IMG/VR virus record: IMGVR_UViG_3300042549_002645
Location: 1 to 33,978 of that record
DNA length: 33,978 bases
From: a virus
Direction: 5' to 3' (one strand)
Every line of letters begins with the position of its first letter. Within the stretch, counting starts at the first letter, position 1. Shown here in pieces: positions 12,502 to 30,886 of this stretch. The notes beneath the pieces were generated by a model, which was not told where the DNA came from, ran no database searches, and saw only the letters and a list, made by a program, of their open reading frames with translations. Position numbers and translations under genes: made by a program.

Positions 12502-12527
12502 AATCTAATCTTAAAAACAAAAACAAA

Positions 12528-13943: not shown

Positions 13944-13951
13944 TATATTTG
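13944..13951 (+). promoter_or_regulatory. Promoter -7 box for the pseudoknotted leader
   Basis: TATATTTG, followed by TACTTG; the -33 box at the expected distance is poor. Transcription would begin near 13957, a few bases before the first pseudoknot strand at 13965. Confidence 0.6.
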
Positions 13952-13964
13952 TACTTGTAATTTA

Positions 13965-14048
13965 GTGAGATTTATTACGAAACCGAAAATATTATAAGAA
14001 TCCGATATGGAAAAGCCAAATCTCACAATAGGCTGACCGTATCGGATT
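13965..14048 (+). ncRNA. Pseudoknotted 5' leader RNA, element A
   Basis: GTGAGATTT (13965-13973) is complementary to AAATCTCAC (14018-14026), which lies in the loop of a hairpin. The outer stem of that hairpin is AATCCGATATGG/CCGTATCGGATT (13999-14010 with 14037-14048, 12 bp with one G-T), and its inner stem is AGCC/GGCT (14014-14017 with 14031-14034). Loop-to-upstream pairing makes an H-type pseudoknot. It starts about 8 nt after the probable RNA 5' end and ends 55 nt before the ATG of the next gene. The sequence matches no riboswitch or ribozyme I know. The 187-base gap 13917-14103 holds only this element, its promoter and an A/T-rich stretch. Confidence 0.75.
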
Positions 14049-14103
14049 TTACTTTTTAAAACTAAAGTTTTGTTTGTTTTAGTTAAAAAACATTCACAAA
14101 ATT

Positions 14104-14340
14104 ATGGCAAATGTCAAATTAATTTTTCAGGGAACTGAAGAATCTTCAACAAATGAAATAGGATTGCAATGCTATTCTAATTCCAACAACAATATTTATA
14201 TATCAATTAAAGATTATGAATGTGACCACGATTATTCTATTCAACATATTTGTTTAGATAGAGAAACAGCTATAAAACTACATCGTGAGCTTAAAAAACA
14301 TATTTCTTTTTTAGAAAATGAAGGAGGTCAAAATGGCTAA
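14104..14340 (+). CDS. Hypothetical protein behind the pseudoknotted leader
   Basis: 78 residues, unrecognised. A beta-rich first half (VKLIFQGTEE, NNIYISIKDYECDHDYS) is followed by a helix, DRETAIKLHRELKKHISFLE. It is the first gene after leader element A and overlaps the replication initiator gene by 8 bases. Its last codons also form that gene's Shine-Dalgarno site. Confidence 0.7.
   Translation: MANVKLIFQGTEESSTNEIGLQCYSNSNNNIYISIKDYECDHDYSIQHICLDRETAIKLHRELKKHISFLENEGGQNG
14321..14328 (+). promoter_or_regulatory. Unusual strong Shine-Dalgarno site
   Basis: AAGGAGGT lies 4 bases before the ATG at 14333. Almost no other gene in this window has a Shine-Dalgarno site, so this one is notable and fixes the start of the replication initiator. 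Confidence 0.7.
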
Positions 14341-15067
14341 AGAATTACCATATTTTAAATTCTTTTGCTCCGAATGGAGTGATGGAGATATAACTTTAGA
14401 ATCATACGAAATTCAAGGTTTATTTATAAATATTTGCTCTTATTATTGGAGTAATAATTGCGAAATGACTATTATTAAGCTAAAAAAGAAGTTTAAAGGC
14501 AACGATAATTTAATTAATGAGCTTATAGATTCTGAAATAATAAAAATAGTTTATGACAATGTTTATATTAACTTTTTAGATGAGCAACTAATTGAGAGAG
14601 AGGATAGTTCTGTTAAGAAAAGTTTAGCTGGTAAAGCATCAGCAGAGGCAAGAAGATTAGCAAAATTAGAACAACAAGTCAACACAAGTTCAACAGAAAG
14701 TCAACAGGTGTTAAATTCCTGTTCAACAGAAAGTCAACTATTAAGAGAAGAGAAGAGAAGAGAAGAGAAGATAAAAGATATTAACCTATCGGTTAATTGG
14801 GACGCACTTCTTTCTCAATTCAATTTAATAACAGGAAAGAAAATAAGAGTTATTGATGACAAAACTAAAAGACAAGTTAATGCAAGGTTAAAAGATGGCT
14901 ATTCTAAACAAGATATTGTTAACGCTATTACTAATTGTTTTAATGATGACTATCACAAAGAGAATCCGCATTACCTTACTTTAGAATTTATCACAAGGTC
15001 AGACAAAATGCAAAAGTACTCTCAGGAAATTATAAAGCCAAAAGCTAAACAACAAGACCGACTATGA
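14333..15067 (+). CDS. Replication initiator (DUF4373-like N-terminus)
   Basis: 244 residues. The N-terminal winged-helix-type domain begins KELPYFKFFCSEWSDGDITL and contains ESYEIQGLFINICSYYW, the usual opening of Lin1244/DUF4373 and DUF1376-like replication proteins. A Ser/Thr/Gln linker follows with two repeats of STESQ, then a run of LREEKRREEK, then a C-terminal domain (about 155-235) like those on phage replisome organisers. It probably recognises the origin and loads the helicase, as O-type initiators do. The linker DNA contains direct repeats (see separate entry). It is followed by an ATGA overlap with the next gene. Confidence 0.78.
   Translation: MAKELPYFKFFCSEWSDGDITLESYEIQGLFINICSYYWSNNCEMTIIKLKKKFKGNDNLINELIDSEIIKIVYDNVYINFLDEQLIEREDSSVKKSLAGKASAEARRLAKLEQQVNTSSTESQQVLNSCSTESQLLREEKRREEKIKDINLSVNWDALLSQFNLITGKKIRVIDDKTKRQVNARLKDGYSKQDIVNAITNCFNDDYHKENPHYLTLEFITRSDKMQKYSQEIIKPKAKQQDRL
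14678..14770 (+). repeat. Iteron-like repeats and pentamer repeat inside the initiator gene (candidate origin)
   Basis: GTTCAACAGAAAGTCAAC occurs exactly twice (14688-14705 and 14721-14738, 33 bases apart), with a fifth GT(T)CAAC unit at 14678. Between the copies an ACAGG/CCTGT inverted repeat occurs. Then the 5-bp unit AGAGA repeats about five times (14743-14770), purine-only on this strand. An origin with iterons and an A-rich side inside an initiator gene is the known layout of phage lambda. The origin call here is inference. Confidence 0.55.
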
Positions 15068-15576
15068 GTAAACCAAATTTAAAAAAGTCTTTTGAATGGT
15101 TGTTTGAAAGATTTACAAAGGATAATTTAAAACCTTGTCAATTTGATTTGGATTGTTTAGTAAGCATTGCAGAAAAAACAAATGAAATAAATAAAGAAGC
15201 GTTTCAGGAAAATACTATTTTTGCAAAAATGTATGTTTATTGCTTAATGCATGAATTAGAATTTTATAAGGATATTAATTTTGCCACTAAAAAATTGAAT
15301 GAAGTTTTAGATTCTCCTTTAGAAAAAACTTGCGACGACTTTTTAAATAGATTAAATCATTTGGAATTAAATAAATATTTACATTCAATCGGAATTAATA
15401 CAGACCACTTAAAACAATTGACAGAAAAAGAAGAAATAAAACAGGGCGTTTTAATGAATGAAAATAAAAAAACTATACAAACATATGTTTTAGGTAAATT
15501 CACAAAGGAAAACGTATTTAAATCGCTAAATAATGCAATTACAAACTGTATTATTAATTTCAAAAACAAAAACTAA
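15064..15576 (+). CDS. Hypothetical replication-module protein
   Basis: 170 residues, unrecognised. It is helical, with FEWLFERFTKDNLKPCQFDL at the start and a Cys/His-poor body, and no membrane segment. Its position between the initiator (ATGA overlap) and the ATPase suggests a helicase loader or partner, but no motif shows this. Confidence 0.65.
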   Translation: MSKPNLKKSFEWLFERFTKDNLKPCQFDLDCLVSIAEKTNEINKEAFQENTIFAKMYVYCLMHELEFYKDINFATKKLNEVLDSPLEKTCDDFLNRLNHLELNKYLHSIGINTDHLKQLTEKEEIKQGVLMNENKKTIQTYVLGKFTKENVFKSLNNAITNCIINFKNKN

Positions 15577-15584
15577 AAGATAAA

Positions 15585-16466
15585 ATGGAAATTAACATAC
15601 CAAAAATAGAAATAGGTAAACAAAACGAAATAATAAAAGGCATAGATTTTTTAGATATTTTTAAAAATAGTTATGTAGACCCATCGGAAGAAATTAAACC
15701 GCAACCAGTTGCAATAAGTATTGGAAGTTCTGAATATAAAGGCACTAATTATCCTATTCCTTTCGGCTCTTATGGAGATTTTTCTTGTATAGTAGGAGCG
15801 TCAAAAAGTAGAAAAACATTTTTTAAATCTATGATTGAGGCGGCTTATATTGGAGGTTCTTCTAATATTTACAATCCTTCAATTAAAGGGCATAATACTA
15901 AAGACAAATTGATAATATCAATTGATACTGAACAATCAAAGCACCACACTCAAAGAGTAGTTAGGCGTGTTTTAGACTTAGTAGGTTCTAACTACGATTT
16001 ATACAAAACATTTTCTTTGCGTACATATTCCCCTAAAGAGCGTTTTGATTTCATTAATTGGTTGGTTTATGAAAGTGATTATAAAAAAGATATTGGATTG
16101 ATGTCTATTGATGGTTATGTAGACTTGGTAACTGATTTTAATAGTTTAGAACAGGCTACAGGATTAACCGAAAAGCTACTTGAATGGACTGCAAGAAAAG
16201 AAGTAAAAGAGCAAATGCATATCACTGGAATTTTGCACAAAAATTTTGGTACTGCTAAACCTGTAGGCCACGTTGGATCAAGTGTTTTAAAGAAAGCTGA
16301 AACAGTTGTATTTATAGACAAAGAAGAAGAAATTTCTAATGTAAAATGCGAGTATAGTCGTAACATGGAATTTAAGCCGTTAATGTTTGGAATAAATAAA
16401 GATTGGTTGCCGTACGAAATTGAACAGGGAGTAGTAGTTAATAATAAAAAAGAACCCGTATTCTAA
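15585..16466 (+). CDS. RecA-fold ATPase / RepA-like helicase
   Basis: 293 residues. The Walker A region is FSCIVGASKSRKTFFKSMI, where the usual Gly before Lys is replaced by Arg (SRKT). Similar forms occur in this Bacteroidota phage family. Walker B-like strands are KLIISIDTEQSKHH and IGLMSIDGYVDL. The later block HITGILHKNFGTAKPVGHVGSS fits the motif 3/4 region of AAA_25/RepA-type hexameric ATPases. It probably unwinds DNA at the fork. It shares its last base with the RusA gene. Confidence 0.75.
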   Translation: MEINIPKIEIGKQNEIIKGIDFLDIFKNSYVDPSEEIKPQPVAISIGSSEYKGTNYPIPFGSYGDFSCIVGASKSRKTFFKSMIEAAYIGGSSNIYNPSIKGHNTKDKLIISIDTEQSKHHTQRVVRRVLDLVGSNYDLYKTFSLRTYSPKERFDFINWLVYESDYKKDIGLMSIDGYVDLVTDFNSLEQATGLTEKLLEWTARKEVKEQMHITGILHKNFGTAKPVGHVGSSVLKKAETVVFIDKEEEISNVKCEYSRNMEFKPLMFGINKDWLPYEIEQGVVVNNKKEPVF

Positions 16467-16792
16467 TGGAAATAAAACTACAGATTAAACCGATGTCGAT
16501 TAATGCTGCTTTTAAAGGTCGAAAGTTTAGAACGCAGGAATACGATATTTTTATTATAAAGTGTTTACGTTTACTTCCTGATAAAATAGAAATACCAAAT
16601 AAAGACCATATTAAATTGGCTTTAGAGTTCGGCTTTAGTTCTAAAGCAAGTGATATTGATAATTGCGTTAAAACTTTCATAGATTGCCTGGTTAAAAAGT
16701 ATAAAGTAGATGACCGATTTATATACGAACTTCACACGTTTAAAACCATAGTAAAAAAAGGCGATGAGTTTATAAGGTTTAAAATATACTAA
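16466..16792 (+). CDS. RusA-family Holliday junction resolvase
   Basis: 108 residues. It cleaves four-way DNA junctions, needed after recombination and before packaging. The core SKASDIDNCVKTFIDCLVKKY has the conserved acidic residues of RusA (D..DN..K...D.L), and the KPMSINAAFKGRKFRT block near the start is also typical. The length is normal for RusA. The start is TAATG, one base shared with the upstream stop. Confidence 0.88.
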   Translation: MEIKLQIKPMSINAAFKGRKFRTQEYDIFIIKCLRLLPDKIEIPNKDHIKLALEFGFSSKASDIDNCVKTFIDCLVKKYKVDDRFIYELHTFKTIVKKGDEFIRFKIY

Positions 16793-16793
16793 A

Positions 16794-17000
16794 ATGAAAT
16801 TAGCGGATAAAATAGAATTATTTAAAAAGAACAATCCTGACAGATTAGAACATACCTTTAAAAATGGGTTAATCTTTAAAGGATTAGGAAAACAAAAAGT
16901 ATATTGGTTTATTGATAGCATTTATAAAGATGCTGTAAATGAATGGGTTAGTGATAAAACAAAAAATAATGTATCTTTTTTAGAAAAAATATTGAAATAA
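16794..17000 (+). CDS. Hypothetical protein
   Basis: 68 residues, unrecognised, starting 1 base after the resolvase stop. It is Lys-rich, with KLADKIELFKKNNPDRLEHT and a Trp/Phe core. It is the last gene of the replication operon before a promoter at about 17.0 kb. Confidence 0.6.
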   Translation: MKLADKIELFKKNNPDRLEHTFKNGLIFKGLGKQKVYWFIDSIYKDAVNEWVSDKTKNNVSFLEKILK

Positions 17001-17002
17001 AT

Positions 17003-17033
17003 TTTGTAATAATAAAACATGACTATATATTTG
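17003..17033 (+). promoter_or_regulatory. Promoter for the small-gene cluster
   Basis: -33 TTTG (17003-17006), 19-base spacer, -7 TATATTTG (17026-17033). It lacks the palindromic operator of the three early promoters. A 6-bp AGATAA/TTATCT hairpin lies at the expected RNA 5' end. Confidence 0.75.
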
Positions 17034-17078
17034 TACTCAGATAACAACAACGAAGTTTTTATCTTAATATTTTTAATT

Positions 17079-17267
17079 ATGACACCAAAAGAAAAAGCAA
17101 AAGAGTTATTTAAAAAAATATATTTGTCAGATGGTAAAGTTTGGCAAGAAACGGCAAAGCAATGTTGTTTAATGGTAGTAGATGAGATTGTTGAATTACA
17201 AAAATTTGATTTTGGTTTTGATTCAAATTACTGGAAAGAAGTTAAACAGGAAATAAATAATATTTAA
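17079..17267 (+). CDS. EKAKEL-family small protein, paralogue 2
   Basis: 62 residues. The pattern TPKEKAKELFKK, TAKQCCLMVVDEI, YWKEVKQEI aligns end to end with the proteins at 6685 and 17565. The start at 17079 matches the paralogues; an upstream in-frame ATG would add a hydrophobic extension not found in them. First gene of the small-gene cluster. Function unknown. Confidence 0.78.
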   Translation: MTPKEKAKELFKKIYLSDGKVWQETAKQCCLMVVDEIVELQKFDFGFDSNYWKEVKQEINNI

Positions 17268-17277
17268 AAAAACAATT

Positions 17278-17367
17278 ATGATAGCAAAATTTTTCCAGCA
17301 AAAAAAGTATCAATATTACTTTTGCGTAGTAGTAGCAGTATGGTTTTTAACTCAATTTTTAAGATAA
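17278..17367 (+). CDS. Very small membrane protein
   Basis: 29 residues: a basic, Gln-rich start, then a hydrophobic segment YYFCVVVAVWFLTQFL. This is one possible membrane helix. It sits in tight line between two EKAKEL-type genes. Small and unconfirmed. Confidence 0.4.
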   Translation: MIAKFFQQKKYQYYFCVVVAVWFLTQFLR

Positions 17368-17373
17368 ATAATT

Positions 17374-17568
17374 ATGAAAACAGCAATAGAATTTGTAGAC
17401 CAATTTGCAACTTATGACACTTACGAAGCGGTAAGAGATTCAAAGAAGTTCGCATTAAGAGCAATAGACGAAATAATAACAGCTTTAGAAAACCACGAAT
17501 GGCAGAATAAAGAAATTATTATGGAATATAAAAAATTACAAAACGAGATAATAAAATTAGAATTATGA
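17374..17568 (+). CDS. Small protein, divergent EKAKEL relative
   Basis: 64 residues. It keeps the middle and final blocks of the family (SKKFALRAIDEIITALE and YKKLQNEIIKL) but not the EKAKEL start, so it is probably a drifted paralogue. The stop overlaps the next start by 4 bases (ATGA). Function unknown. Confidence 0.65.
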   Translation: MKTAIEFVDQFATYDTYEAVRDSKKFALRAIDEIITALENHEWQNKEIIMEYKKLQNEIIKLEL

Positions 17569-17756
17569 AAACACCACAGGAAAAAGCTAAAGAGTTATTT
17601 AGAAAAGTATATTTATTAGATCATAAAATTTGGCAAGATACTGCAAAACAAATAGCACTTATAATGGTTGATGAAATGATAAACGAGTTTGATTCATTAG
17701 AACATTATAGAATCGATTATTGGTATGAAGTAAAAGAAGAAATAAATAAATTATAA
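17565..17756 (+). CDS. EKAKEL-family small protein, paralogue 3
   Basis: 63 residues. TPQEKAKELFRKVYLLDHKI is nearly the same as in the copy at 17079, followed by TAKQIALIMVDEM and YWYEVKEEI. The two copies are separated by the divergent relative and the 29-residue membrane protein, suggesting a local duplication. Function unknown. Confidence 0.78.
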   Translation: MKTPQEKAKELFRKVYLLDHKIWQDTAKQIALIMVDEMINEFDSLEHYRIDYWYEVKEEINKL

Positions 17757-17760
17757 CACT

Positions 17761-18237
17761 ATGACACTACAAGAAATTAAAGACTTATTTAAAGTCGATT
17801 TAACAGAGAAAAACAGAAAACCGCACTTAGTTTATCTTAGAGGTCATTATATCGATAAGGAGTACAAAAAAGGGCGTACATATCTATCGATTTGCAATGA
17901 ATTAAAATGCAACCACGCTACAGGATATCATTATACAAAAGTTAAAAAATTCTATATTAACATAAAAGAATATAATGAAATGAAAATAGTATTTGACACT
18001 AAAAATGTAGATCTGTTTAATGAGATTGATTTTAGACTTAAAAATAAAAAGTATATTTATTACGATAACTTTGATAAAAAGCCAAAGAAAAAGGACAAGA
18101 TGCCGGAAGTAAGATGGCATTATTTAAGGATCATTGAAGCATTAAGAAAAGATAATAAAAATCAACTTTGGGATAAAGAAATGAAGTTATTTACTAAAAA
18201 GGATTATAAAGTTTTGGAAGCTTTGGAAAATAAATAA
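17761..18237 (+). CDS. Hypothetical basic protein
   Basis: 158 residues, very Lys/Tyr rich. YLSICNELKCNHATGYHYTKVKKFY (about 47-71) could be a helix-turn-helix, but this is weak. The linker FDKKPKKKDK is strongly basic. It may bind nucleic acid; I do not recognise the family. Last of the four-gene run after promoter 17.0 kb. Confidence 0.65.
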   Translation: MTLQEIKDLFKVDLTEKNRKPHLVYLRGHYIDKEYKKGRTYLSICNELKCNHATGYHYTKVKKFYINIKEYNEMKIVFDTKNVDLFNEIDFRLKNKKYIYYDNFDKKPKKKDKMPEVRWHYLRIIEALRKDNKNQLWDKEMKLFTKKDYKVLEALENK

Positions 18238-18262
18238 TTTTAATTTACATTATTTTTACATA

Positions 18263-18279
18263 ACGGCGATTAACGCCGT
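18263..18279. other. Short GC-rich hairpin
   Basis: ACGGCG, loop ATTAA, CGCCGT. A 6-bp stem in an otherwise AT-only gap (18238-18302), followed by AATAACTT, not by a T-run. It may be a weak terminator or processing site. Confidence 0.45.
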
Positions 18280-18302
18280 AATAACTTAAAAATTTAAATA
18301 AA

Positions 18303-18482
18303 ATGACAAAACAAAAACAACATCTTATTGATATGATTAAAGCTGATGAAGAGTTAGGGTTGTATGAAGAACCTACAAAAATAGAACGGATTGAAGTAGT
18401 AATTAAGTATTACTACGATAGGGGAACAAATCGAGAAAGAGTAAATCAAATAAAAAGAAAACTATTAAAAAATGGAAAATAA
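18303..18482 (+). CDS. Small hypothetical protein
   Basis: 59 residues, charged: MTKQKQHLIDMIKADEELGL, then PTKIERIEVVIKYYYDRG and a basic end. Probably helical. It overlaps the next small gene by 11 bases. No known family. Confidence 0.55.
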   Translation: MTKQKQHLIDMIKADEELGLYEEPTKIERIEVVIKYYYDRGTNRERVNQIKRKLLKNGK

Positions 18483-18573
18483 AATTAAATTTAACGAATG
18501 GATGCAAAAGATAAAAAACATTTATTTTGCTGATAATGAACAAATGTGTGAAGCATATCAAAGAATAAAATAA
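18472..18573 (+). CDS. Very small hypothetical protein
   Basis: 33 residues. FNEWMQKIKNIYFADNEQM suggests one amphipathic helix. Kept because it is tightly packed between two other small genes in the same strand; could be spurious. Confidence 0.35.
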   Translation: MENKIKFNEWMQKIKNIYFADNEQMCEAYQRIK

Positions 18574-18574
18574 A

Positions 18575-18751
18575 ATGAGAATAGTTTTTGAAACAGACGA
18601 AAGAAAAGTTACAGTCCGAACTCCTGATGATGACTTGGATATAAGCGAATTAATGCAGATTATTTATGATTCGTTAAAAGGTTTGACTTTTAGTGATACT
18701 ACAATTTTAAACGGATTAAAAGAATTAATAGAAACAATAGAAGAAAAATGA
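18575..18751 (+). CDS. Small hypothetical protein (common Bacteroidota phage type)
   Basis: 58 residues. RIVFETDERKVTVRTPDDDL followed by the ELMQIIYDSLKGL helix is a pattern I have met in other Bacteroidota phage genomes, without assigned function. A beta-beta-helix arrangement is likely. Its stop overlaps the next ATG (ATGA). Confidence 0.6.
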   Translation: MRIVFETDERKVTVRTPDDDLDISELMQIIYDSLKGLTFSDTTILNGLKELIETIEEK

Positions 18752-18888
18752 GAATAATCTGTAACTTATTTATATTAAATTTGTTACGGATTAAAAATAA
18801 AGTTATGATAGAATTTGCAACAGGAATCACAATAGGGTTTATAATTGGTATATTTTTTGTGTTAGCTATTAGCTTAATTAGAAAATAA
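18748..18888 (+). CDS. Small membrane protein
   Basis: 46 residues from the ATGA start, or 27 residues from an internal ATG at 18805. The C-terminal half is one membrane helix (FATGITIGFIIGIFFVLAIS) ending in IRK. The upstream DNA contains a possible -7 box (TAAATTTG) with a GTAAC/GTTAC inverted repeat, so the shorter form behind its own promoter is possible. Confidence 0.5.
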   Translation: MRIICNLFILNLLRIKNKVMIEFATGITIGFIIGIFFVLAISLIRK

Positions 18889-18928
18889 TTTTGTATGTTT
18901 GATATCTAAATAATATCAATTTAAAATA

Positions 18929-19099
18929 ATGAGTGAAATAGAAGAAATAAGACAAGAATTTAGATGTATAGATGATACATTAAATAAAGTAAGAATTTAT
19001 ATGTCTGATTTAGGAGAGGAAATTTACAATCAAAGGCAATTATTAGAACAACAAAATGAAACAATACAATATTTAATTCAAGTTATAATTAATAAATAA
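18929..19099 (+). CDS. Small coiled-coil-like protein
   Basis: 56 residues, Glu/Gln rich: IEEIRQEFRCIDDTLNK, EEIYNQRQLLEQQNETIQ. Heptad-like spacing suggests a short coiled coil. It is preceded by an AT-rich gap with TATGTTTG (possible -7) and followed at once by the ribbon-helix-helix gene. Confidence 0.55.
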   Translation: MSEIEEIRQEFRCIDDTLNKVRIYMSDLGEEIYNQRQLLEQQNETIQYLIQVIINK

Positions 19100-19102
19100 A
19101 AT

Positions 19103-19414
19103 ATGAAAAAAGATGTAATAATATTTAGGGTAAATCCAGAGTTAAAAAATGAATTAAAGAAAAAAGCGAAAAATGAAAATAGAAGTCTTAATAATTATTT
19201 AGAAAATCTATTGTCAAAACAACTGCCTAATGTTGATAATAAAGAAAATCTATTTCCTATTTATTATAGAGGAAAAAATTATTATAAAGAAGATTGTGAT
19301 GAAACATTTTTATCTATTTATGACGATATGCGTATTTTAAATACAGATAAAGGAATATACATTTCAGGTGGAGAATCAATTTATCCTGATGGAGAAATTA
19401 ACGAATATTTTTAA
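19103..19414 (+). CDS. Ribbon-helix-helix (Arc-like) protein with extension
   Basis: 103 residues. VIIFRVNPELKNELKKKA followed by RSLNNYLENLLSK is the strand-helix-helix order of Arc/MetJ DNA-binding proteins (about residues 5-40). The C-terminal 60 residues (YYRGKNYYKEDCDETFLSIY and on) are a separate, unrecognised domain. RHH proteins bind palindromes as dimers, so this is a possible regulator in this genome. It is followed by a second, shorter RHH gene. Confidence 0.75.
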   Translation: MKKDVIIFRVNPELKNELKKKAKNENRSLNNYLENLLSKQLPNVDNKENLFPIYYRGKNYYKEDCDETFLSIYDDMRILNTDKGIYISGGESIYPDGEINEYF

Positions 19415-19421
19415 ATAAATT

Positions 19422-19553
19422 ATGAAAACAAAACCAAAACAAGTTCCGTTAAGAATCAGTATTGAATTATACGAAAAAATAAAAGCTAACGCAGAAAAAG
19501 AGCAAAGGTCTTTTAATAATTATTTAGTAAACTTATTAACAAAGCATACTTAA
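19422..19553 (+). CDS. Ribbon-helix-helix (Arc-like) small protein
   Basis: 43 residues: QVPLRISIELYEKIKANAEK then RSFNNYLVNLLTK. It consists of a bare RHH domain (PLRIS strand, two helices) close to that of the gene before it. Probably a DNA-binding dimer; target unknown. It lies directly before the sigma factor gene. Confidence 0.75.
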   Translation: MKTKPKQVPLRISIELYEKIKANAEKEQRSFNNYLVNLLTKHT

Positions 19554-19565
19554 ATTATTTTTTCA

Positions 19566-19573
19566 TATATTTG
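19566..19573 (+). promoter_or_regulatory. Candidate -7 box at the sigma factor start
   Basis: TATATTTG lies only 4 bases before the ATG of the sigma gene. If used, the mRNA would start at or near the ATG (leaderless). The -33 box is weak. Confidence 0.4.
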
Positions 19574-19577
19574 ATGT

Positions 19578-20033
19578 ATGATTGAAAAGTTAGCACAACA
19601 TCACGACGAATGGGTAAAGTTTGCATTAAAGATTTGCGGAAATCGTGATGACGCTAACGACCTTGTACAGGAAATGTATTTAAAAATGCACGATAGCCAA
19701 AAGGAAGTAAATAATTCTTATATCTATTGCGTTATTAAAAATCTTTATCTCGACCAATACCGAAAGAATAAGGTAAAAGAAAAAACGGTATACTACCAAG
19801 AAGAATATACAGAACAAAACGAAGAAATTGATTTCACTGCAGCCTACGAGGAATCACTAAAAGAACTAAAGACCTATAAGCAATTGATTGTAAACTTTTC
19901 AACTAAAGAAGGAGTTAACAACTTCGCAAGACAAAGTGGAATATCTAAAGCCACAATTATAAGAATAAGAAACGAATTTAAAAAGATACTATGTCAGAAA
20001 GTAAAGGACTTGGAGATTCAATCGCAAAGATAA
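19578..20033 (+). CDS. Phage ECF-like RNA polymerase sigma factor
   Basis: 151 residues. The sigma region 2 core is seen in ALKICGNRDDANDLVQEMYL and VIKNLYLDQYRKN (about 16-65). A region 4-like HTH near the end is NFARQSGISKATIIRIRNEF. The length fits small phage sigma factors of the ECF class. It lies at the junction between early small genes and the terminase/virion genes, so a late-gene switch is the natural role. The next gene starts inside its end, overlapping by 43 bases. Target promoters are unknown. Confidence 0.8.
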   Translation: MIEKLAQHHDEWVKFALKICGNRDDANDLVQEMYLKMHDSQKEVNNSYIYCVIKNLYLDQYRKNKVKEKTVYYQEEYTEQNEEIDFTAAYEESLKELKTYKQLIVNFSTKEGVNNFARQSGISKATIIRIRNEFKKILCQKVKDLEIQSQR

Positions 20034-20296
20034 CTAAAGCAGTCGGAATAAAGCCTTGCAAGAGTTGTGAGAAACGGAAGAATATTTTGAATAAGTTATT
20101 TCCGTTTAAGAGTGTTAACGTCTTAAATGATGCTCAAATGAAGTTATTAGCTAAATTAGATAGTTTATCCGATACAGAAATAATTGAAATTTATAATAAT
20201 GTTTTCAATACCAATTTGGCTATTGATACGTTTAATATAAATATACGTAATGCGGTTATAAATGATTTAAATAGTTTGTATGCCAATTCCAAATAA
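19991..20296 (+). CDS. Hypothetical protein (terminase-adjacent, CxxC)
   Basis: 101 residues. GLGDSIAKITKAVGIKPCKS with CEKRKNILNKLFPF is a pattern seen beside terminase genes in many Bacteroidota phages, often with two to three Cys (here C, C). The Cys pair suggests metal or a small zinc knuckle. The rest is polar and helical. It overlaps the sigma gene by 43 bases and the next small gene by 17. Function unknown. Confidence 0.65.
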   Translation: MSESKGLGDSIAKITKAVGIKPCKSCEKRKNILNKLFPFKSVNVLNDAQMKLLAKLDSLSDTEIIEIYNNVFNTNLAIDTFNINIRNAVINDLNSLYANSK

Positions 20297-20411
20297 AAGA
20301 ACATCAAAAAGCATAAACAAACTTCTTTTAAAATATATGGAAAAGATAAAAGAAGATATTCCTAACGAAAAGCAAAGATTTGATTTTTGCGTAAAACAAT
20401 TAACAAAATGA
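20280..20411 (+). CDS. Very small basic protein
   Basis: 43 residues: IPNKRTSKSINKLLLKYMEK then DIPNEKQRFDF. It is basic and helical, coupled to the lipoprotein gene by ATGA. Unrecognised. Confidence 0.5.
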   Translation: MPIPNKRTSKSINKLLLKYMEKIKEDIPNEKQRFDFCVKQLTK

Positions 20412-20638
20412 AAAAATATATTTTAATATTATTAGCGGTTATAGTTTCGAGTTGTACATTAAGCAAAGAAGATGAATTGCCTAAAGATTGTGGATGTAAT
20501 AGAATAGTAGAAGTAAGTTCTTTTTATATGCCTGATAGAAGCGTTTTCGGAACATTTGTAACAATTAACGATTGTACTGGAGTGCAAAGAAATTACCAAT
20601 GGCAAAATAATAAACCACAAAAAGGTAGTTGTTATTAA
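20408..20638 (+). CDS. Phage-encoded lipoprotein
   Basis: 76 residues. A signal peptide KKYILILLAVIVSSC ends in a lipobox (VSSC), so Cys at position 16 would be lipidated and the protein anchored at the envelope. The mature part has five more Cys (CGC, NDC, GSC and others), suggesting disulfides and an extracytoplasmic site. The ATG at 20408 is chosen because the signal peptide begins there and because it overlaps the preceding stop (ATGA). Phage lipoproteins may block superinfection; here that is inference. Confidence 0.75.
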   Translation: MKKYILILLAVIVSSCTLSKEDELPKDCGCNRIVEVSSFYMPDRSVFGTFVTINDCTGVQRNYQWQNNKPQKGSCY

Positions 20639-20661
20639 TTGGACTCAATTTATTTCAATTT

Positions 20662-20943
20662 ATGGAAGATAAAAGAAAAAATAATGGCGGTCATTCTAAC
20701 GGTGGTCGTAAAAGTAAAGCAGAAGAACAAAATTTAATTGAGAAGCTAAGCCCTTTAGAGGACTTGGCTTTTACTGCTTTAACTAATGCAATAAAAGATA
20801 ATAGAGATTGGGCGGTTAAAATGTATTTCGAGTATATGTATGGTAAGCCTAAACAACAAACTGACATAACTACAATGGGAGAGAAAATCCAAAACGTTAT
20901 TAATTTAGGTACAGGAATCAATCCAAATGAAACTATTAGTTAA
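20662..20943 (+). CDS. Terminase small subunit-like protein
   Basis: 93 residues from the ATG at 20662 (an earlier in-frame ATG adds unlikely residues). KNNGGHSNGGRKSKAEE at the start and ALTNAIKDNRDWAVKMYFEY then YGKPKQQTD resemble the small terminases of this phylum, which recognise phage DNA for packaging. It overlaps the large subunit by 17 bases. No clear HTH is seen, so the call rests on pattern and position. Confidence 0.75.
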   Translation: MEDKRKNNGGHSNGGRKSKAEEQNLIEKLSPLEDLAFTALTNAIKDNRDWAVKMYFEYMYGKPKQQTDITTMGEKIQNVINLGTGINPNETIS

Positions 20944-22222: not shown

Positions 22223-22237
22223 ATACGTTATATAATT

Positions 22238-23395: not shown

Positions 23396-23919
23396 ACAAT
23401 ACCGAAACATTAAACACACTACAAGCGTTTAATAAGTACGTTATACAACAGGCACGAACTAACTTAACCAAAGGAAATAAAAATGTAACTAAGGAGCTTT
23501 ATGATTCATTAAAAGCTACATCAAAAGTAAACCCTAACTCTATCGAGAATTATATCGAGATGGCGGATCACGGTAAGTTTTTAGACTTAGGAGTAAAAGG
23601 TAAAGTAAGTAGTCAAAGAGCGCCAAATAGTCCGTTTAAATATGGTAGCGGTACAGGTAAAAAAGGCGGATTAACTGAAGGGATTAGAGGTTGGGTTAAG
23701 GCTCGACGGTTTCAGTTTAGAAATAGAGATACGGGTAAGTTTATGAGTTACGAACAAACCGCACAATTAATAACAAGGTCAATCTATTTGAAAGGTACAA
23801 AACCAACTTTATTTTTTAGCAAACCATTTGCGAAAGGTTTTGAAAGTTTACCTGATGAATTGATTAAAGCATACGGATTAGATATCGAATCATTTTTAAA
23901 ATTTACACTAAATAAATAA
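23389..23919 (+). CDS. Neck/tail protein, HK97 gp10-like
   Basis: 176 residues. A helical start is followed by YIEMADHGKFLDLGVKGKVS, then a positively charged block (GIRGWVKARRFQFRNRDTGK) and FFSKPFAKGF. The block 'ADHG.F.D.G..G.....', and Phe/Pro near the end, are typical of gp10-like and minor head-tail joining proteins. It overlaps the flanking genes by 7 and 1 bases. The assignment is moderately certain from pattern and order. Confidence 0.6.
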   Translation: MLNNTETLNTLQAFNKYVIQQARTNLTKGNKNVTKELYDSLKATSKVNPNSIENYIEMADHGKFLDLGVKGKVSSQRAPNSPFKYGSGTGKKGGLTEGIRGWVKARRFQFRNRDTGKFMSYEQTAQLITRSIYLKGTKPTLFFSKPFAKGFESLPDELIKAYGLDIESFLKFTLNK

Positions 23920-25457
23920 TGGCACAAAAAATAACATTTACTTTTCCGACGAGTACAATAATAGGAACTAATTACAGAGTACTTAGGCTTACTTCAAATG
24001 GCACTACCGTTTTTGATAGTGAGCCTATTTTTGTTAATTCTTCAATAACAGGAAACGACCCTTATACATTCACACCTCCTGATAATACTTCTTACGTTAA
24101 TAATATAATCATAAAAGGTGCAAGTATTAATAACTTTGCAAATAATTTTAAATTATGGTTAGATGCTCAATTAAGTTTTAACGGTTCAATATATTATGAA
24201 ACCACAATAACAGGCAATATAGTTGAGCTAATTTGGGGTTCTAATTCAGAAACAAACGACGCTTTATTTGTAGATTTATCAGAAGATGCTCACGATGAGC
24301 CTTGGTTATTATTAGCATTTGAAAGTTATACGATAATTACACCGATAGTCCCTGAGGTATTACCGCAAAAAATAATATTATCAAGAAGTCCGTTTCATTT
24401 TAAAGTATCGCCGGGTATTACATTCGACGAAATTACGGCTGAAATATTTATATATCGAGGTCATAAAATAGATGACAGACCTTTAGTGTCTACTTATAAT
24501 ATAAGTAAATCAGTAGTGCAAGTTGGTCAAAGTGCTATTAACTTTGATATTCATAAACTCGTTAATGATTATGTGAAAAATGTTTATTCAGGTGTAGGAC
24601 TTTCTGGGGCGTTTACCACTTCTTTATTAGATAGTGTATGGGTTTATATAGATGCTAAGATTAATTTAGCAGGGGTTGAACAGTACCAAGCTAATCAAGT
24701 GTTATTAGCTATTGATGGTTTTGGGTATCATACAGACTTAGCAAATCCTGAAATATCTACTTTGCCTAATATTATTTATAGAAGACAAAAAGTATTAACA
24801 AGTATAGACAATCATATAATTTATAATGATAGCGACTATCCTTTATATTTTATTACTAATGGTTTAGTTTCTTTAACTGTTAACGGAACAAATATACCTT
24901 TTACATTTAGTCAGGATTATTCTAATCAAAATATTGGGTATGTTAATATAAAAAACTATATAGGTTCTTCAACTTCATTTAGTGTATTATTCTTTTACGA
25001 TGGTTCAGAAACGCCAAGCGTTACAATTAATTTTACAATTAAAGACGAATGTAAATTTCCGTTAATGAATTGTATTTTTAAGAATAAGTTTGGAGTTTGG
25101 CAAACAATACCGTTTAATAAATTGAGTAAGAAATCGCAGGACTTTACTAACGAAAGTTATAATGGTTTAATTTCTAATTATGGCAATTACGCCTTAAATA
25201 AACATGTTAAACAGACTTTTAATGTTAACGGAAAAGAGAAAATAACAGTTAATACAGACTTCATACCTGAGGAGTATAATCTTTTATTTACCGAGTTAAT
25301 GCTAAGTGAGTTTATTTATCTTGAAGAAAACGGAACAGTATTACCAGTTAATTTAATGAAAAATACTTTTGAAAAGAAAACTAAATTAAATAATAAATTA
25401 ATTCAGTACTCAATGGATTTTGAATATAGCTTTAACCTTTTAAACAACATTATCTAA
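23919..25457 (+). CDS. Large tail structural protein
   Basis: 512 residues, rich in Asn, Ser, Thr and beta-type sequence throughout, with no transmembrane or enzymatic motif. Repeated blocks such as FTFPTSTIIGTNYRVLRLT and LFFYDGSETPSVTINFTI suggest stacked beta domains. It lies between the neck gene and the 783-residue tail protein, upstream of the tape measure. It is probably part of the tail tube or tip; I do not recognise the exact family. Confidence 0.7.
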   Translation: MAQKITFTFPTSTIIGTNYRVLRLTSNGTTVFDSEPIFVNSSITGNDPYTFTPPDNTSYVNNIIIKGASINNFANNFKLWLDAQLSFNGSIYYETTITGNIVELIWGSNSETNDALFVDLSEDAHDEPWLLLAFESYTIITPIVPEVLPQKIILSRSPFHFKVSPGITFDEITAEIFIYRGHKIDDRPLVSTYNISKSVVQVGQSAINFDIHKLVNDYVKNVYSGVGLSGAFTTSLLDSVWVYIDAKINLAGVEQYQANQVLLAIDGFGYHTDLANPEISTLPNIIYRRQKVLTSIDNHIIYNDSDYPLYFITNGLVSLTVNGTNIPFTFSQDYSNQNIGYVNIKNYIGSSTSFSVLFFYDGSETPSVTINFTIKDECKFPLMNCIFKNKFGVWQTIPFNKLSKKSQDFTNESYNGLISNYGNYALNKHVKQTFNVNGKEKITVNTDFIPEEYNLLFTELMLSEFIYLEENGTVLPVNLMKNTFEKKTKLNNKLIQYSMDFEYSFNLLNNII

Positions 25458-27809
25458 ATGGACATAGCTTTATATATTTCAGATGTAGCCGAAGTAAATT
25501 ACCAAAGATTAGATTTATTTAAAGATGAGGATATAAGTATAAACTTAACATCTAAAAATATTTCAGATATTTCTAAAGTCTTTGCTGAATTTACTCAAGG
25601 GTTTTCAGTTCCTGCAAGTCCAAACAATAACGCTATATTTTCACATTGGTATGATGCAACTGTAGACGGTTTATTTAATGCTAATAAAAGAGTATTGGCT
25701 TATATTGAAATAAATACTTTGCCGTTTAAATACGGTGTTATTCAGTTGGATAGTTGTAAGTTAAAAGGCGGTCAAATTTCTTCTTATGAATTGACTTTTT
25801 TTAATAAAGTAGTTAATTTATCGGATTCAATGGGCGACCTTGAATTGAAAGATTTGACTTTGACAGCTTACGACCATTCATATAACAAAACGAATGTAAC
25901 GAGCGCAATGTATAGCGATTCAATCCATAGCGGTGATGTATATTATCCTATGATTACAAGTACAAAGGATATTAATTACGGGGACAGTTCAGTAAATGAT
26001 ATAAAATACGCGAGTAATACAATAAAATTTACAGATTTTAAACCCGCTATAAGATTAATAAGAATTATTGAAGCAATTGAAACGGATTTAAACGTAACTT
26101 TTTCACGTGACTTTTTTGGTCGTTCGGTATTTCATAATCTTTTTATGTGGTTACATAAAGACGCAAAAGGAGTTAATAACGAGGGACAGCGTGAGCAAAT
26201 AGACTTCACAAGTAAAGGCGATTTAGAGGATTATTCTGGCATATTAGTTGACTTAACAGATAATTCTTTAATAACAAATTATCCATCTACAACTGTAAAG
26301 GTTTTTACAAATATAAAAATAACTCCGTCGGCAGGTTATGAGAATGTACCTTATATTTTAGAACGTGAATTAGATGGCGAGCCATTTGGTAAATCACCAG
26401 AAAAAAAGGGGACTACTTGGACTGAATTCAGAACAGATAACGACACTAAAAAACATACTTTTTTTATAAATGTTACTCAGGAATTTAAATTTACAACTGA
26501 ATTAAGATTAACGATAATAGGTTTAAGCTATAAATTCGCAACATTTACAGAACAAACTGTTGTAGGTAATATTTCAATATCTAACAATATGCCTACATTA
26601 AAGCTAAAAGACTTTTTTGGTAGTTTGATAAACCAATTTAACCTTATAATAGTTCCAACAAGCGCTAACGATTATTATATTGATACGTTAGACAATTGGT
26701 ATTCTAAAGGCGATACATTCGACATAACGCATTTAATTAATATTGATGACATTACAATTAAAAAGCCTGATATTAAAAAGTTAATTGAGTTTAAATATCA
26801 AAGTGCGGGCGCGATTTTAGGTAAACGTTTTTTAGATACTTACGGAACTGGCTATGGCGATTTAAAATCAAAGTATGATGACATCGCTGGGAGTGATTTA
26901 AAAATAGAAAGCCAATTTGAAAACTTACTATTCGAAAGGTTACAAGATATAACAATAGTCCCTAACATTACAAGCAATTTACATTTAGGTTCTTCTATCG
27001 ATTTAAAATTAGAACCTTATAGCGGAAAGCCGTATATGTTCTATAAAAACGGCTTAATAAATTTAGGTACAAATATTTATGTTGATGGGATTGCCTTTGA
27101 GAATGTATTTTTAACAGCAACGGAAGATAATACAGATTTTAATCAAATAACAAATAGTTTAAATTTTGGCGCTGAAGTATCGACGTACTTTTTAACAATT
27201 GTTAACAAGTCTTTATATTCTAACTTTTGGCAAACTTATGTTTCTGATTTATATAACCTAAAAACAAGGGTATTAAATTTAAAATGTAAGTTACCAATAT
27301 CTATATTAAGCCGATTATCTTTAAATGATAAATTGATAATTAATAAAAATAAATATAAAATATCTAACTTAAAAGTAAACCTAATTAATTCCGATGCAGA
27401 CCTTGAAATATTTACTGATTATTCTATGCCAGCTGACACTATTGCTAATGAAATTCCTTTAACTGTTGATAGAACGGATATAACCGTAGATGCTGATAAT
27501 TTAACAGTTGACCGTATAAGCACTTACGACGCTTTATATTCATTTATAGTTAACGGAATAAGCCGAACAACTTACACGAGTACAAACGCTAAAGAGTTTT
27601 TTGAAGTTAAAGTAAATGCCAATACCAATTGGTCAGTAGTTAAAATAAATACAGGCGACGGGGTTAGTTGGTTTAGTTGTGATAAAACAATAGGCGATAA
27701 GTCAGATTATACTATGGTTACGGTAAATGCTAATGTAGGAGCATCCAGAACGGGTACTTTACGTTATATTATTGGAGGGGTTAATTTTGATTTAATAATA
27801 ACACAATGA
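25458..27809 (+). CDS. Large tail protein with C-terminal BACON-like domain
   Basis: 783 residues. The main part (1-680) begins YISDVAEVNYQRLDLFKDED and includes NISDISKVFAEFTQGFSVPAS and KLKDFFGSLINQFNLIIVPT, typical of large tail or baseplate proteins in this phylum. The final 80 residues (from about 700) have FFEVKVNANTNWSV, DGVSWFSCDKT, YTMVTVNAN and SRTGTLRY ending in a 'F.L.I.Q' strand. This is the BACON pattern, a Bacteroidota-associated domain thought to bind carbohydrate. It probably sits at the tail tip. It is followed by an ATGA overlap with a small gene. Confidence 0.75.
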   Translation: MDIALYISDVAEVNYQRLDLFKDEDISINLTSKNISDISKVFAEFTQGFSVPASPNNNAIFSHWYDATVDGLFNANKRVLAYIEINTLPFKYGVIQLDSCKLKGGQISSYELTFFNKVVNLSDSMGDLELKDLTLTAYDHSYNKTNVTSAMYSDSIHSGDVYYPMITSTKDINYGDSSVNDIKYASNTIKFTDFKPAIRLIRIIEAIETDLNVTFSRDFFGRSVFHNLFMWLHKDAKGVNNEGQREQIDFTSKGDLEDYSGILVDLTDNSLITNYPSTTVKVFTNIKITPSAGYENVPYILERELDGEPFGKSPEKKGTTWTEFRTDNDTKKHTFFINVTQEFKFTTELRLTIIGLSYKFATFTEQTVVGNISISNNMPTLKLKDFFGSLINQFNLIIVPTSANDYYIDTLDNWYSKGDTFDITHLINIDDITIKKPDIKKLIEFKYQSAGAILGKRFLDTYGTGYGDLKSKYDDIAGSDLKIESQFENLLFERLQDITIVPNITSNLHLGSSIDLKLEPYSGKPYMFYKNGLINLGTNIYVDGIAFENVFLTATEDNTDFNQITNSLNFGAEVSTYFLTIVNKSLYSNFWQTYVSDLYNLKTRVLNLKCKLPISILSRLSLNDKLIINKNKYKISNLKVNLINSDADLEIFTDYSMPADTIANEIPLTVDRTDITVDADNLTVDRISTYDALYSFIVNGISRTTYTSTNAKEFFEVKVNANTNWSVVKINTGDGVSWFSCDKTIGDKSDYTMVTVNANVGASRTGTLRYIIGGVNFDLIITQ

Positions 27810-27955
27810 TAAGACAAGTTATACAATTACTACAAATGGATGATTGGCTTAATTCAGGCGAATGTACCGAAATAGCAAAAGGAAAATATCAATTACCAAC
27901 AACGCTCAAAGGAGCAACTAAAAAAATAAAGAGATTATGGCAATCGAAAAGGTAG
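27806..27955 (+). CDS. Small protein before the tape measure
   Basis: 49 residues. It starts at the preceding stop (ATGA) and overlaps the tape measure start by 19 bases. RQVIQLLQMDDWLNSGECTE then GATKKIKRLWQSKR suggests a charged helical protein. Unrecognised; probably a tail-assembly accessory by position. Confidence 0.55.
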   Translation: MIRQVIQLLQMDDWLNSGECTEIAKGKYQLPTTLKGATKKIKRLWQSKR

Positions 27956-29973
27956 TTAATTTAAAAGTAACGGATAACGTAGATAAAACTACAAAGAGCG
28001 TTAGTAATCTTAAAACGCAATTAAGAGAAGCCCAAAACGAGGTTAATGAATTAAGCGCAAAGTTCGGAGCAACTTCGAGAGAAGCAGTAGAAGCTGCAAA
28101 ACGAGCTTCTGATTTAAAAGACGCAATAGGCGATGCTAAAGCCTTAACCGATGCCTTTAATCCTGATGCAAAATTTAAAGCTTTGACCTCGACTCTTGGA
28201 GGTGTTGCAGGTGGATTTGCAGCGGTTCAAGGTGCTGTTGGTTTATTAGGTACAGAAAGTCAGGATGTTGAAAAAATGATTCTTAAAGTTCAGTCAGCAA
28301 TGGCTATAACTCAAGGAATCCAAGCAGTAGGAGAAAGCGTCGACAACTTTAAACAATTATTAGCAGTTGTAAAAGACAATTTATTTTATCAAAAAGCACT
28401 TGCTGCAGCGATAGCCATACAAACTTTTGTAATGAACGGAGCAACTTTAGCGGCTAAAGCGTTAAGAGGTGCTTTAGTAGCCACGGGTATTGGTGCTTTA
28501 GTAGTTGGTATAGGTTTATTAGTGGCTAATTTTGACAAATTAAAATCAATTATTTTTAGTAGTGCTAATAATGTAAAGGTATTAAATGACAAATTAAAAG
28601 AAACCATTGCCATAAATGACGATTTAATTTCGCAAGATGAAAGAAGATTAACTTTGTTAGAAGCACAAGGAGCAAATGAGGAAAAAATATTTGCAACTAA
28701 ACAACAAAACCTAACAAAAGAAATAGCGAGAATTTTAGAAAAAATGGACGCTACCGAAGCAGTTTACAAAGCTGAATTAGAGGCGGGAGATTTAACTAAT
28801 GAAAGAAAAAAAGAGTTAGAAGATGAATATGATGCTTTTAAAAAACAAGCAGTAGAAAAAAGAGCTGAATTTGAAATAAACAAAAACGCTCAAGTAGTTA
28901 AAGAGGTTAATGATGCTTTAAACGACCAAATAAAAAGAGACGACGAAATACAAGCGTCTAAAGATAAGAAAGAAGAAAAAGCAAAAGAAAGAAGGGAAAA
29001 AGCTAATGAAGAGGCAAAAAGATTAAGAGAAGAAGCATACGAACACGAAAGACTATTTGTAGAACAACAACTAACAGACTCTAAAGATTCAATAGATAAA
29101 AAAAGAGAAATTGTTATTGCTGATATGGATTTGTCTAAAAAAGACAGACAAAAATTCCTTTATGATTTACATTTAGAAGAACAAAAAAGCGAACAAGAAC
29201 ACGCTGAAAAATTAAAGGATATTAATAAAAGATATGATGAAGAAAAAGAGAATAGACTTGCCGATACCAATGTAAAAAAAGAAGAATTAGACTATCAAAG
29301 AAGAAAGTTAGAAATTGAAAGCATCGCTCAAACTGAATCAGAAAAACTTAATTTAATTGCAAAGTTAAATGAGGAGCATAATGCTAAAATGATTGATGCT
29401 AAAAAAGCTGATGCGGATAAACAACTTGAAATTGAACAAGCCGTTGCCGCCGCTAAATTAGCTATTCAAAATTCTCAATTAGATAATATATCAAACGGTA
29501 TAGCAGTAATTCAAAATTTAGGTATTAAAAGTAAAGCACTACAAAAAGGTTTAATGATTGCGGAAAGTGCGGCTGGTATAGCTAAAATCGTAATTAATAC
29601 CCAAGCTGCAAACTCGGCAGCAGCTTTAAAATATGCACTTTTACCAGGTGGTCAAGCATTAGCAGCAGCCGAAATAACAGCTAATAAAGTAGGAGCAGGT
29701 ATAGGAATAGCAGCCAATTTAGTTTCTACATCAAAAGCATTATCGGCTTTAGGTGGTGGCGGTTCAGCGGGTGGAGGTTCACAAGGTACAGGAGGTTCAG
29801 CACCAACACCCCCGCAATTTAACATAGTAGGTCAAAGCGGAACTAACCAATTAGCACAAACTATAGCGGGTCAACAAAATAAACCGATAGAGGCGTTCGT
29901 AGTTAGTTCCGCCGTGACGAGTAGCCAAGCATTAGACCGCAATCGTGTACGCACAGCGACCTTCGGCGGGTAA
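27937..29973 (+). CDS. Tail tape measure protein
   Basis: 678 residues. An N-terminal coiled-coil region (KTTKSVSNLKTQLREAQNEV) is followed by hydrophobic membrane-like segments at about 160-200 (ALRGALVATGIGALVVGIGL) and long charged coiled coils (about 250-510). A Gly/Ser/Ala-rich end follows. This is the usual architecture of tape measure proteins, which set tail length. By the usual proportionality of about 0.15 nm per residue, the tail would be near 100 nm. It is followed by a bidirectional terminator. Confidence 0.87.
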   Translation: MAIEKVVNLKVTDNVDKTTKSVSNLKTQLREAQNEVNELSAKFGATSREAVEAAKRASDLKDAIGDAKALTDAFNPDAKFKALTSTLGGVAGGFAAVQGAVGLLGTESQDVEKMILKVQSAMAITQGIQAVGESVDNFKQLLAVVKDNLFYQKALAAAIAIQTFVMNGATLAAKALRGALVATGIGALVVGIGLLVANFDKLKSIIFSSANNVKVLNDKLKETIAINDDLISQDERRLTLLEAQGANEEKIFATKQQNLTKEIARILEKMDATEAVYKAELEAGDLTNERKKELEDEYDAFKKQAVEKRAEFEINKNAQVVKEVNDALNDQIKRDDEIQASKDKKEEKAKERREKANEEAKRLREEAYEHERLFVEQQLTDSKDSIDKKREIVIADMDLSKKDRQKFLYDLHLEEQKSEQEHAEKLKDINKRYDEEKENRLADTNVKKEELDYQRRKLEIESIAQTESEKLNLIAKLNEEHNAKMIDAKKADADKQLEIEQAVAAAKLAIQNSQLDNISNGIAVIQNLGIKSKALQKGLMIAESAAGIAKIVINTQAANSAAALKYALLPGGQALAAAEITANKVGAGIGIAANLVSTSKALSALGGGGSAGGGSQGTGGSAPTPPQFNIVGQSGTNQLAQTIAGQQNKPIEAFVVSSAVTSSQALDRNRVRTATFGG

Positions 29974-29980
29974 AATTAAA

Positions 29981-30015
29981 AAACCCTCGTTAGTTATAGC
30001 GAGGGTTTGTTTTTA
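29981..30015. terminator. Bidirectional terminator
   Basis: AAACCCTCG, 10-base loop, CGAGGGTTT, followed by GTTTTT on + and by TTTTTTAATTTT on -. It ends both the tape measure transcript and the minus-strand GIY-YIG gene. Confidence 0.9.
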
Positions 30016-30729
30016 TACGTAGATAAATGGAGTTGTGTTTTTTCTATTTAAATAGTTATATAATTTTATTCTTGTTATATTTATAGTTATTGCGGCTTCC
30101 TCACATCCTAAATAAAAAATACCTGTTTCAGTGTTTAGTATTATTTTATTGTTTGATTCACTCATTTTTCTTTTACTTTCTTCGGAATGTTTTTTACCTG
30201 TATTAAATTCACTAATTTTTCTTTTAGTTTCTTCAGATAATTTAATTCCTTTACGAGCTTTACTCATTTTTCTTTTACTTTCTTCAGATAATTTAATTCC
30301 TTTACGAGCTTTACTCATTTTTCTTTTACTTTCTTCGGAATGTTTTTTACCTGTATTAAATTCACTAATTTTTTTTTTAGTTTCTTCAGACATATTTAAT
30401 TTAGCTTCACTCATTTTTCTTTTACTTTCTTCAGATAATTTACCACTTCTATCACTTGACTTTGTCAATCTACAATTTAAACCAGCTTTACCAATAGCAC
30501 TAAAAACTTCCTGATAATACCTTTCTTTATCGTTTAGTTCGTTTGCTTCACATTCACATAAAACTTCAAATTTATGTTTGTTTGCTCCATATTTTAAAAG
30601 TGAATTATAAAGTATTGTTTGCGTTTTACAACTTAATCTTTTATATTGATTAAATCTTTTTTCAATATCAATACTTTGACCTATGTAAACTTTCTTTGTT
30701 GGACTTGTAATCTTATAAATTCCTATCAT
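30013..30729 (-). CDS. GIY-YIG endonuclease with NUMOD3-like repeats (free-standing homing type)
   Basis: 238 residues. The GIY-YIG core is complete: [19 protein letters not shown] (GIY...YIG), then an Arg in IEKRFNQYK, and a Glu in [11 protein letters not shown]. After it come about seven tandem repeats of 17 residues ([17 protein letters not shown] and variants), like NUMOD3 DNA-binding modules of homing endonucleases. The C-terminus ([20 protein letters not shown]) looks like a small HTH (NUMOD1-type). It is the only minus-strand gene, with its own promoter and structured leader. Probably a mobile endonuclease that moved between virion genes without disrupting one. Confidence 0.9.
30178..30393 (-). 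repeat. 51-bp tandem repeats inside the endonuclease gene
   Basis: Identical or nearly identical 51-base units (17 codons each) code for the NUMOD3-like motifs. Exact adjacent copies lie at 30241-30291 and 30292-30342, and a longer block near 30178 recurs at 30331, 153 bases (three units) away. The copies are recent duplications; they are coding and not CRISPR. Confidence 0.85.
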
Positions 30730-30739
30730 AATAAAAACA

Positions 30740-30806
30740 ACCCTCTAAATAGTACCGCCAAGTAAACTATAAAGAGGGTGTTAATTAATTTTATAAATCT
30801 TGGCGG
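30740..30806 (-). ncRNA. Pseudoknotted 5' leader RNA, element B
   Basis: On the minus strand, CCGCCAAG (30806-30799) pairs with CTTGGCGG (30762-30755), which lies in the loop of a hairpin. Its outer stem is ACCCTCT/AGAGGGT (30779-30773 with 30746-30740) and its inner stem is ATAG/CTAT. The design (upstream strand, spacer, hairpin whose loop pairs upstream) is that of element A. It starts about 5 nt after the expected RNA 5' end and ends 10 nt before the endonuclease ATG. Confidence 0.75.
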
Positions 30807-30816
30807 ATTTCTAATA

Positions 30817-30824
30817 CAAATATA
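30817..30824 (-). promoter_or_regulatory. Minus-strand promoter -7 box for GIY-YIG gene
   Basis: TATATTTG read on the minus strand, followed by TATTAG. RNA would begin near 30811. The -33 box is weak. The endonuclease thus seems to have its own promoter, leader and terminator. Confidence 0.6.
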
Positions 30825-30886
30825 CAATTTTATTTTCTAAATGACACCATTATAAAAATAAAACGTATTATAAGAAACAAAAGACA

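Follow-up and report, generated by a model that had tools for sequence, protein, structure and literature searches.

Two elements of one phage genome, A on the plus strand and B on the minus strand, carry unrelated letters in what appears to be the same order of parts, and the question is whether this order defines an RNA and what such an RNA might do. The source was a 34-kb virus record (33,978 nt, analysed whole and called the window below). Its genes include those of flavobacterial phages; for example, its exonuclease shares 75% identity with the one in Flavobacterium phages. A sequence-only reading of the window had noted that A and B share one layout without sequence similarity, and had suggested that the structure is what is kept and may mark an undescribed class of 5'-terminal phage RNA. 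Both elements were found as that reading described them, apart from some distances.

Layout of the two elements

Element A begins with a promoter -7 box of the class TAnnTTTG, TATATTTG (13944–13951, +). Three nucleotides past the box, near the expected +1, lies a 5' hairpin that we call HP1 (TTGTAAT/ATTACGA, 7 bp; 13955–13980), and within its loop is a strand U, GTGAGATTT (13965–13973), identified by scans and by covariation in alignment A6 (see below). A second hairpin, HP2 (13997–14050), was supported by folding (z = -5.1), by scans, and by 100% pairing in A6. It is made up of a 14-bp outer stem, an internal loop and a 4-bp inner stem (AGCC/GGCT) that is capped by a 13-nt loop (14018–14030) containing the kissing partner of U, which we call U', AAATCTCAC (14018–14026; layout scans and loop complementarity). 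HP2 is followed by a T-run, TTTTACTTTTT (14047–14057), that was kept in homologues. Downstream on the same strand are a small ORF (14104–14340) and a replication initiator-like protein (14318–15067; phrog_428, phrog_18020), and the small ORF has the same place between element and replication gene in phages snork6-1 and elemoB. Immediately 5' of element A the window encodes a 472-aa protein (12498–13916) whose N-terminus resembles a methyltransferase and whose C-terminus is DUF4942.

Element B, on the minus strand, has the same TATATTTG box by sequence inspection (30817–30824). Its HP1 begins 6 nt past the box and is weak, with 4-bp arms AAAT and ATTT (30795–30810) that enclose the kissing strand U, CCGCCAAG (30799–30806, from the layout scan); the copy in phage Freya has an HP1 of 8 bp. 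Folding and layout scans placed HP2 (ACCCTC..TAGT[loop]ACTA..GAGGGT) at 30740–30779; its inner stem is TAGT/ACTA, and in its 12-nt loop the layout scan located U', CTTGGCGG (30755–30762). The T profile marked a T-run (30730–30740) that continues up to the ATG of a free-standing homing endonuclease of GIY-YIG/NUMOD3 type (30013–30729, from domain matches). A boxA-like CTCTTT within B's HP2 was considered as a functional motif and dropped, as A has no such motif.

These measurements changed several details of the sequence-only reading. It had put 5–8 nt between box and upstream strand, and we measured 13 nt in A and 10 nt in B. The spacer of 19–25 nt became a strand-to-stem distance of 18–25 nt, and the loop of 13–14 nt was right for A alone. 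The proposed pairing of a plain upstream strand with the loop was half right: the complementarity is real, but the upstream strand usually lies enclosed by a stem of its own, HP1. Because the strand sits in the HP1 loop, the predicted interaction is an intramolecular kissing-loop and not simple strand/loop pairing. HP1, the terminator-like T-run, a TTG element at -33, and the link to replication and homing genes were all absent from that reading. In general, the HP1 loop pairs over 7–11 bp with the large loop of the longer HP2, and the distance from the HP1 start to the HP2 base is about 70–90 nt.

We compared the layout with chance in two scans. The first descriptor (box, strand, hairpin and complement, scored by energy) ranked A (-33.2 kcal/mol) and B (-29.5 kcal/mol) first and second in the window; the next match scored -22.2, and the best in 20 dinucleotide shuffles of the window -26.9. 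The second scan left the promoter free and required both hairpins with complementary loops, and a TAnnTTTG box lay upstream in 29 of 52 real matches versus 1 of 85 in five shuffles. Scanning 1.64 Mb gave 85 boxed matches versus 3 in two shuffles, counts that do not measure prevalence since many of these loci were fetched with element-derived patterns. Box and HP1 in this set were mostly 2–6 nt apart (mode 4). An equal rate in shuffled sequence, or absence from relatives, had been named beforehand as evidence against a recurring structure; shuffles yielded almost no matches, and relatives yielded many, with unrelated letters.

Some members (L003:2617–2643, L022, L180 and L018) form a subtype in which the spacer folds into a small third hairpin, whose arms differ yet match (TTAGAC/GTCTAA, TTAGTA/TACTAA, TTAGTC/GACTAA). 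Elsewhere in the window, ARAGORN reported a tRNA-Phe (6266–6339) with the anticodon AAA instead of GAA, and just 5' of it are a strong hairpin of 12 bp and, at 6155, a TATATTTG box.

Covariation of the loops

Two independent alignments were used to examine the kissing helix. Alignment A6 held 11 sequences of A type. Of the 8 pairs in its kissing helix, 4 were invariant and 4 had changed on both sides; no one-sided change was seen, and pairing stood at 96.6%. In the same alignment, pairing reached 100% in the outer stem of HP2 and 97% in HP1. Alignment A8 held 10 sequences from initiator relatives, with 7 pairs, 3 invariant, 4 changed on both sides and none on one side (100% paired). Together the alignments gave 8 compensated kissing pairs and no pair changed on one side only, and when the kissing alignment was slid as a control, pairing fell to 31–46%.

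A covariance model built from HP1 and HP2, with the kissing pairs left out, found 33 matches, 24 of them distinct, and all 24 had loop complementarity of 7–11 nt. Mean complementarity among the 24 was 8.35, compared with 5.0 for permuted loops, and none of 19,999 permutations reached as high a value. We concluded that the element is, as predicted from these alignments, an intramolecular kissing-loop RNA: two hairpins with complementary, covarying loops. Outside the promoter and T-run, almost no base was conserved across types.

U and U' are also inverted repeats adjoining a promoter, and they could in principle be paired DNA operators of a regulator instead of RNA. We rejected this scarcely credible reading because the HP2 stems covary, and do so independently; moreover, U is not the same between members of one genome.

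Promoter and transcript start

The sequence TAnnTTTG is the -7 consensus of the sigma-A/ABfr promoter of Bacteroidota (PMC7366714, PMC9723704), which has a -33 TTTG about 19 nt upstream of it (PMC7366714). Our descriptor required the -7 box, and the promoter test found TTG enriched at -26 to -22 from the box, that is, at the -33 spacing (19–20 of 60 versus 1–7 elsewhere). Element promoters match the sigma-A/ABfr type in having both the -7 box and the -33 TTG. The -7 box of F. psychrophilum spans -12 to -5 (PMC9723704), and with this spacing in Flavobacterium HP1 begins at about +1. A promoter of host type (-33 TTG, -7 TAnnTTTG) is thus predicted to set the transcript start at HP1.

With HP1 placed at about +1, protection of the 5' end is a serious rival to the reading favoured below, and we regard it as possible. 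HP1, locked to HP2 by kissing, would keep pyrophosphohydrolase and 5'-end-dependent nucleases away from the 5' end and so prolong the life of the mRNA. The letters of stems and loops vary freely, as a purely structural role predicts. Nevertheless, HP1 is not uniformly strong. It was recognised by side-by-side reading of relatives, is clear among A-type members, has only 4 bp in B type, and reaches at least 5 bp in 58% of members versus 27% by chance (shuffled flanks). Protection also leaves the T-run directly after HP2 unexplained.

Distribution among phages and downstream genes

Less biased evidence came from loci picked by a protein, from whole phage records and from chromosome. All nine relatives of the window's replication gene, picked by the replication protein alone, have the element, with differing sequence. 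Of 66 relatives of the snork6-1 initiator, 23 have a copy in the 1.2 kb upstream, against none in the downstream control, and it was found in none of four relatives of the Freya-type initiator. One copy precedes the replication initiator region in each of snork6-1, elemoB, Freya and the window. Named complete or nearly complete phage records contained two copies (Freya, elemoB, snork6-1, as in the window) or one (11b), and the named carriers include phages of Flavobacterium and Polaribacter. No element was found in the records of FCL-2, 6H and phi10:1, and the single weak match in B124-14 is probably due to chance.

By inspection, about 15 of 28 loci selected by homing endonucleases have the element directly before the ATG, and at least five types follow it (GIY-YIG/NUMOD3, SegE-like GIY-YIG, NUMOD4-HNH, HNH and EndoVII-like). 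The link is not general for the EndoVII-type family, since only 3 of 79 loci in that set had the element upstream and 1 of 79 downstream. Three close homing-endonuclease relatives (L016, L017, L031) have a TAnnTTT-type promoter-like box directly before the ATG and no leader element, and form a natural comparison for the leader's effect. Terminase-selected loci had the element in 4 of 27 cases, 3 of them distinct. Loci L303, L319 and L320 have it near terminase genes, and in L303 and L319 the start of the ORF after it resembles GIY-YIG homing genes. Other genes in this position encode replication initiators, primosomal proteins, BT4734/PriCT primase, ResIII helicase, an N6/N4 methyltransferase and a VRR-NUC protein. 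The following ORFs belong to many unrelated families, in the orientation of the element.

We rejected a bacterial origin. Nine boxed matches occurred in 393 kb of phage and none in 400 kb of Flavobacterium chromosome; 150 Flavobacterium genomes gave 1 borderline match to the A-type model, and the only match to the B-type pattern in 200 family genomes was the seed metagenome-assembled genome itself.

The leader of element B was 85–92% identical in the elemo phages and Freya (window 30720–30850, minus strand, against H28–H43), which belong to other phage groups. The gene after it is an EndoVII-like endonuclease in the elemo phages and a metallo-beta-lactamase-fold protein in Freya. A B-like leader before genes of unrelated families indicates that the leader moves between unrelated genes, and promoter and leader are best read as a cassette that travels between homing endonucleases and other genes. 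Homing endonucleases probably took the leader from replication genes, or the reverse, for the same expression schedule.

A promoter and a terminator-like end would also suit a trans-acting small RNA, terminated at about 90 nt. We consider this very unlikely: the element nearly always lies directly 5' of an ORF in its own orientation, and loops that are free to vary imply no shared target. Most likely, judging by this placement, the element is a cis-acting leader.

The terminator-like end and possible function

After the last G–C pair of HP2, T made up 66–90% of positions 1–5, compared with a background of 33%; at positions 8–11 T was still about 70%, and C plus G were near zero. The ATG lies 7–19 nt past HP2 in most members and about 50 nt in A type, and the T-run persists in these A-type members. 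The T-run therefore belongs to the hairpin and not to the start codon. A stable stem with an immediate U-tract is the trait of an intrinsic terminator, and HP2 with its T-run shows it. The sequence-only reading had suggested a role in mRNA stability or translation; we consider such a role less likely, given a T-run that is present even at this distance from the ATG.

We scored HP2 alone, with no term for the kissing, by the classic terminator d-score. The median was -20, far above the -68 obtained when random tails were put on these hairpins, and 15% of HP2s scored above 0. On this score, A (-34) and B (-14) were below the phage's ordinary terminator at 29981 (+18.5), a point against the attenuation reading that follows.

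The reading we favour over 5'-end protection, with a probability of roughly 0.4, is that transcription is attenuated at HP2 as a terminator-like hairpin assisted by the kissing. HP1 would fold first and then kiss the HP2 loop as HP2 emerges. Kissing would stabilise HP2, which alone, with its large loop and internal loop, is a mediocre intrinsic terminator; that is, it would supply the stability that HP2 is short of. The element would then be an attenuator or pause that sets the amount of early transcription entering the gene. Against attenuation, we found no excess of alternative antiterminator pairing between HP2 arms and upstream sequence, and no enrichment of antisense promoters over the element (a box in 9 of 61; background 14.7%). 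A single-gene unit behind a strong terminator would also be silent unless read through.

Translational control, of the kind known for T4-type homing genes with sequestered start regions, seems unlikely for the gene that follows. Most ATGs are within the ribosome footprint at their 7–19 nt from HP2, and homing genes of T4 and Aeh1 do use RNA structures against translation (PMC3014915), but here the start codon is unpaired and the A-type ATG is well removed.

Tentatively, the element may be a phage-specific, widespread RNA regulator of transcription, in which a ligand-free kissing-loop without a conserved recognition sequence sets terminator strength and so links the expression of replication genes and homing endonucleases in Bacteroidota phages. 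Phage gene regulation in Bacteroidota is little known. If true, a large group of environmental phages has one leader RNA in common, which family databases would miss because its sequence is not conserved, and homing endonucleases would seem to borrow the regulatory leader of their host phage's replication genes. The element would also offer a system, short and open to design, in which to test how kissing loops control transcription or mRNA life in Bacteroidota.

Comparison with known systems

The suggestion of an undescribed class agrees with Rfam 15, in which the window and 18 loci matched no family at the gathering threshold other than a tRNA in the window; at lax thresholds the best sub-threshold matches (E 0.1–8) were implausible. 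We found no description of such an element in the open-access literature.

The put RNAs of phage HK022 (putL, putR) are similar in size and have two stem-loops near an early promoter; putL is about 70 nt long and lies immediately downstream of that promoter (PMC9378689). This likeness in size and position suggests put-like processive antitermination or anti-pausing, in which the nascent two-hairpin RNA binds and modifies RNA polymerase. We judge that improbable, as put needs specific bases and here almost none are conserved outside promoter and T-run. Specific put bases contact RNA polymerase, and the passages cited report neither loop-loop kissing nor a terminal U-run (PMC9378689); in our elements the loop sequence is free and the kissing is kept.

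The hairpins of T4-type homing genes (I-TevI, mobE, segB) are likewise structured RNAs just 5' of free-standing phage homing genes (PMC3014915). They sequester the ribosome-binding site, whereas here no start region is paired inside a hairpin, the element has a promoter on its 5' side, and it is found before replication genes too. The rep attenuators of pT181 type have a terminator-like hairpin in the rep leader and need a countertranscript; our elements are like them in the hairpin and unlike them in that no countertranscript is indicated. The leaders of IncI-alpha repZ, IncB and IncL-M (work cited in PMC10724649) need both an antisense RNA and a leader peptide. Their pseudoknots are comparable in pairing loops over a long range within the leader of a replication-initiator mRNA; they differ from the present elements, at which antisense promoters were not enriched.

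In phage T4, the leader of gene 32, a gene of DNA metabolism, folds into a 5' pseudoknot (PMC3014915). The present elements resemble it in placing a 5' structure before such a gene, and differ in that the gene 32 pseudoknot is H-type and autoregulated via gp32 binding. We know of no U-run after that pseudoknot. Known kinds include structured leaders, kissing loops and put-like RNAs; what appears to be new, from the predicted structures compared here, is a kissing-loop leader without conserved sequence that is common to phage replication and homing genes.
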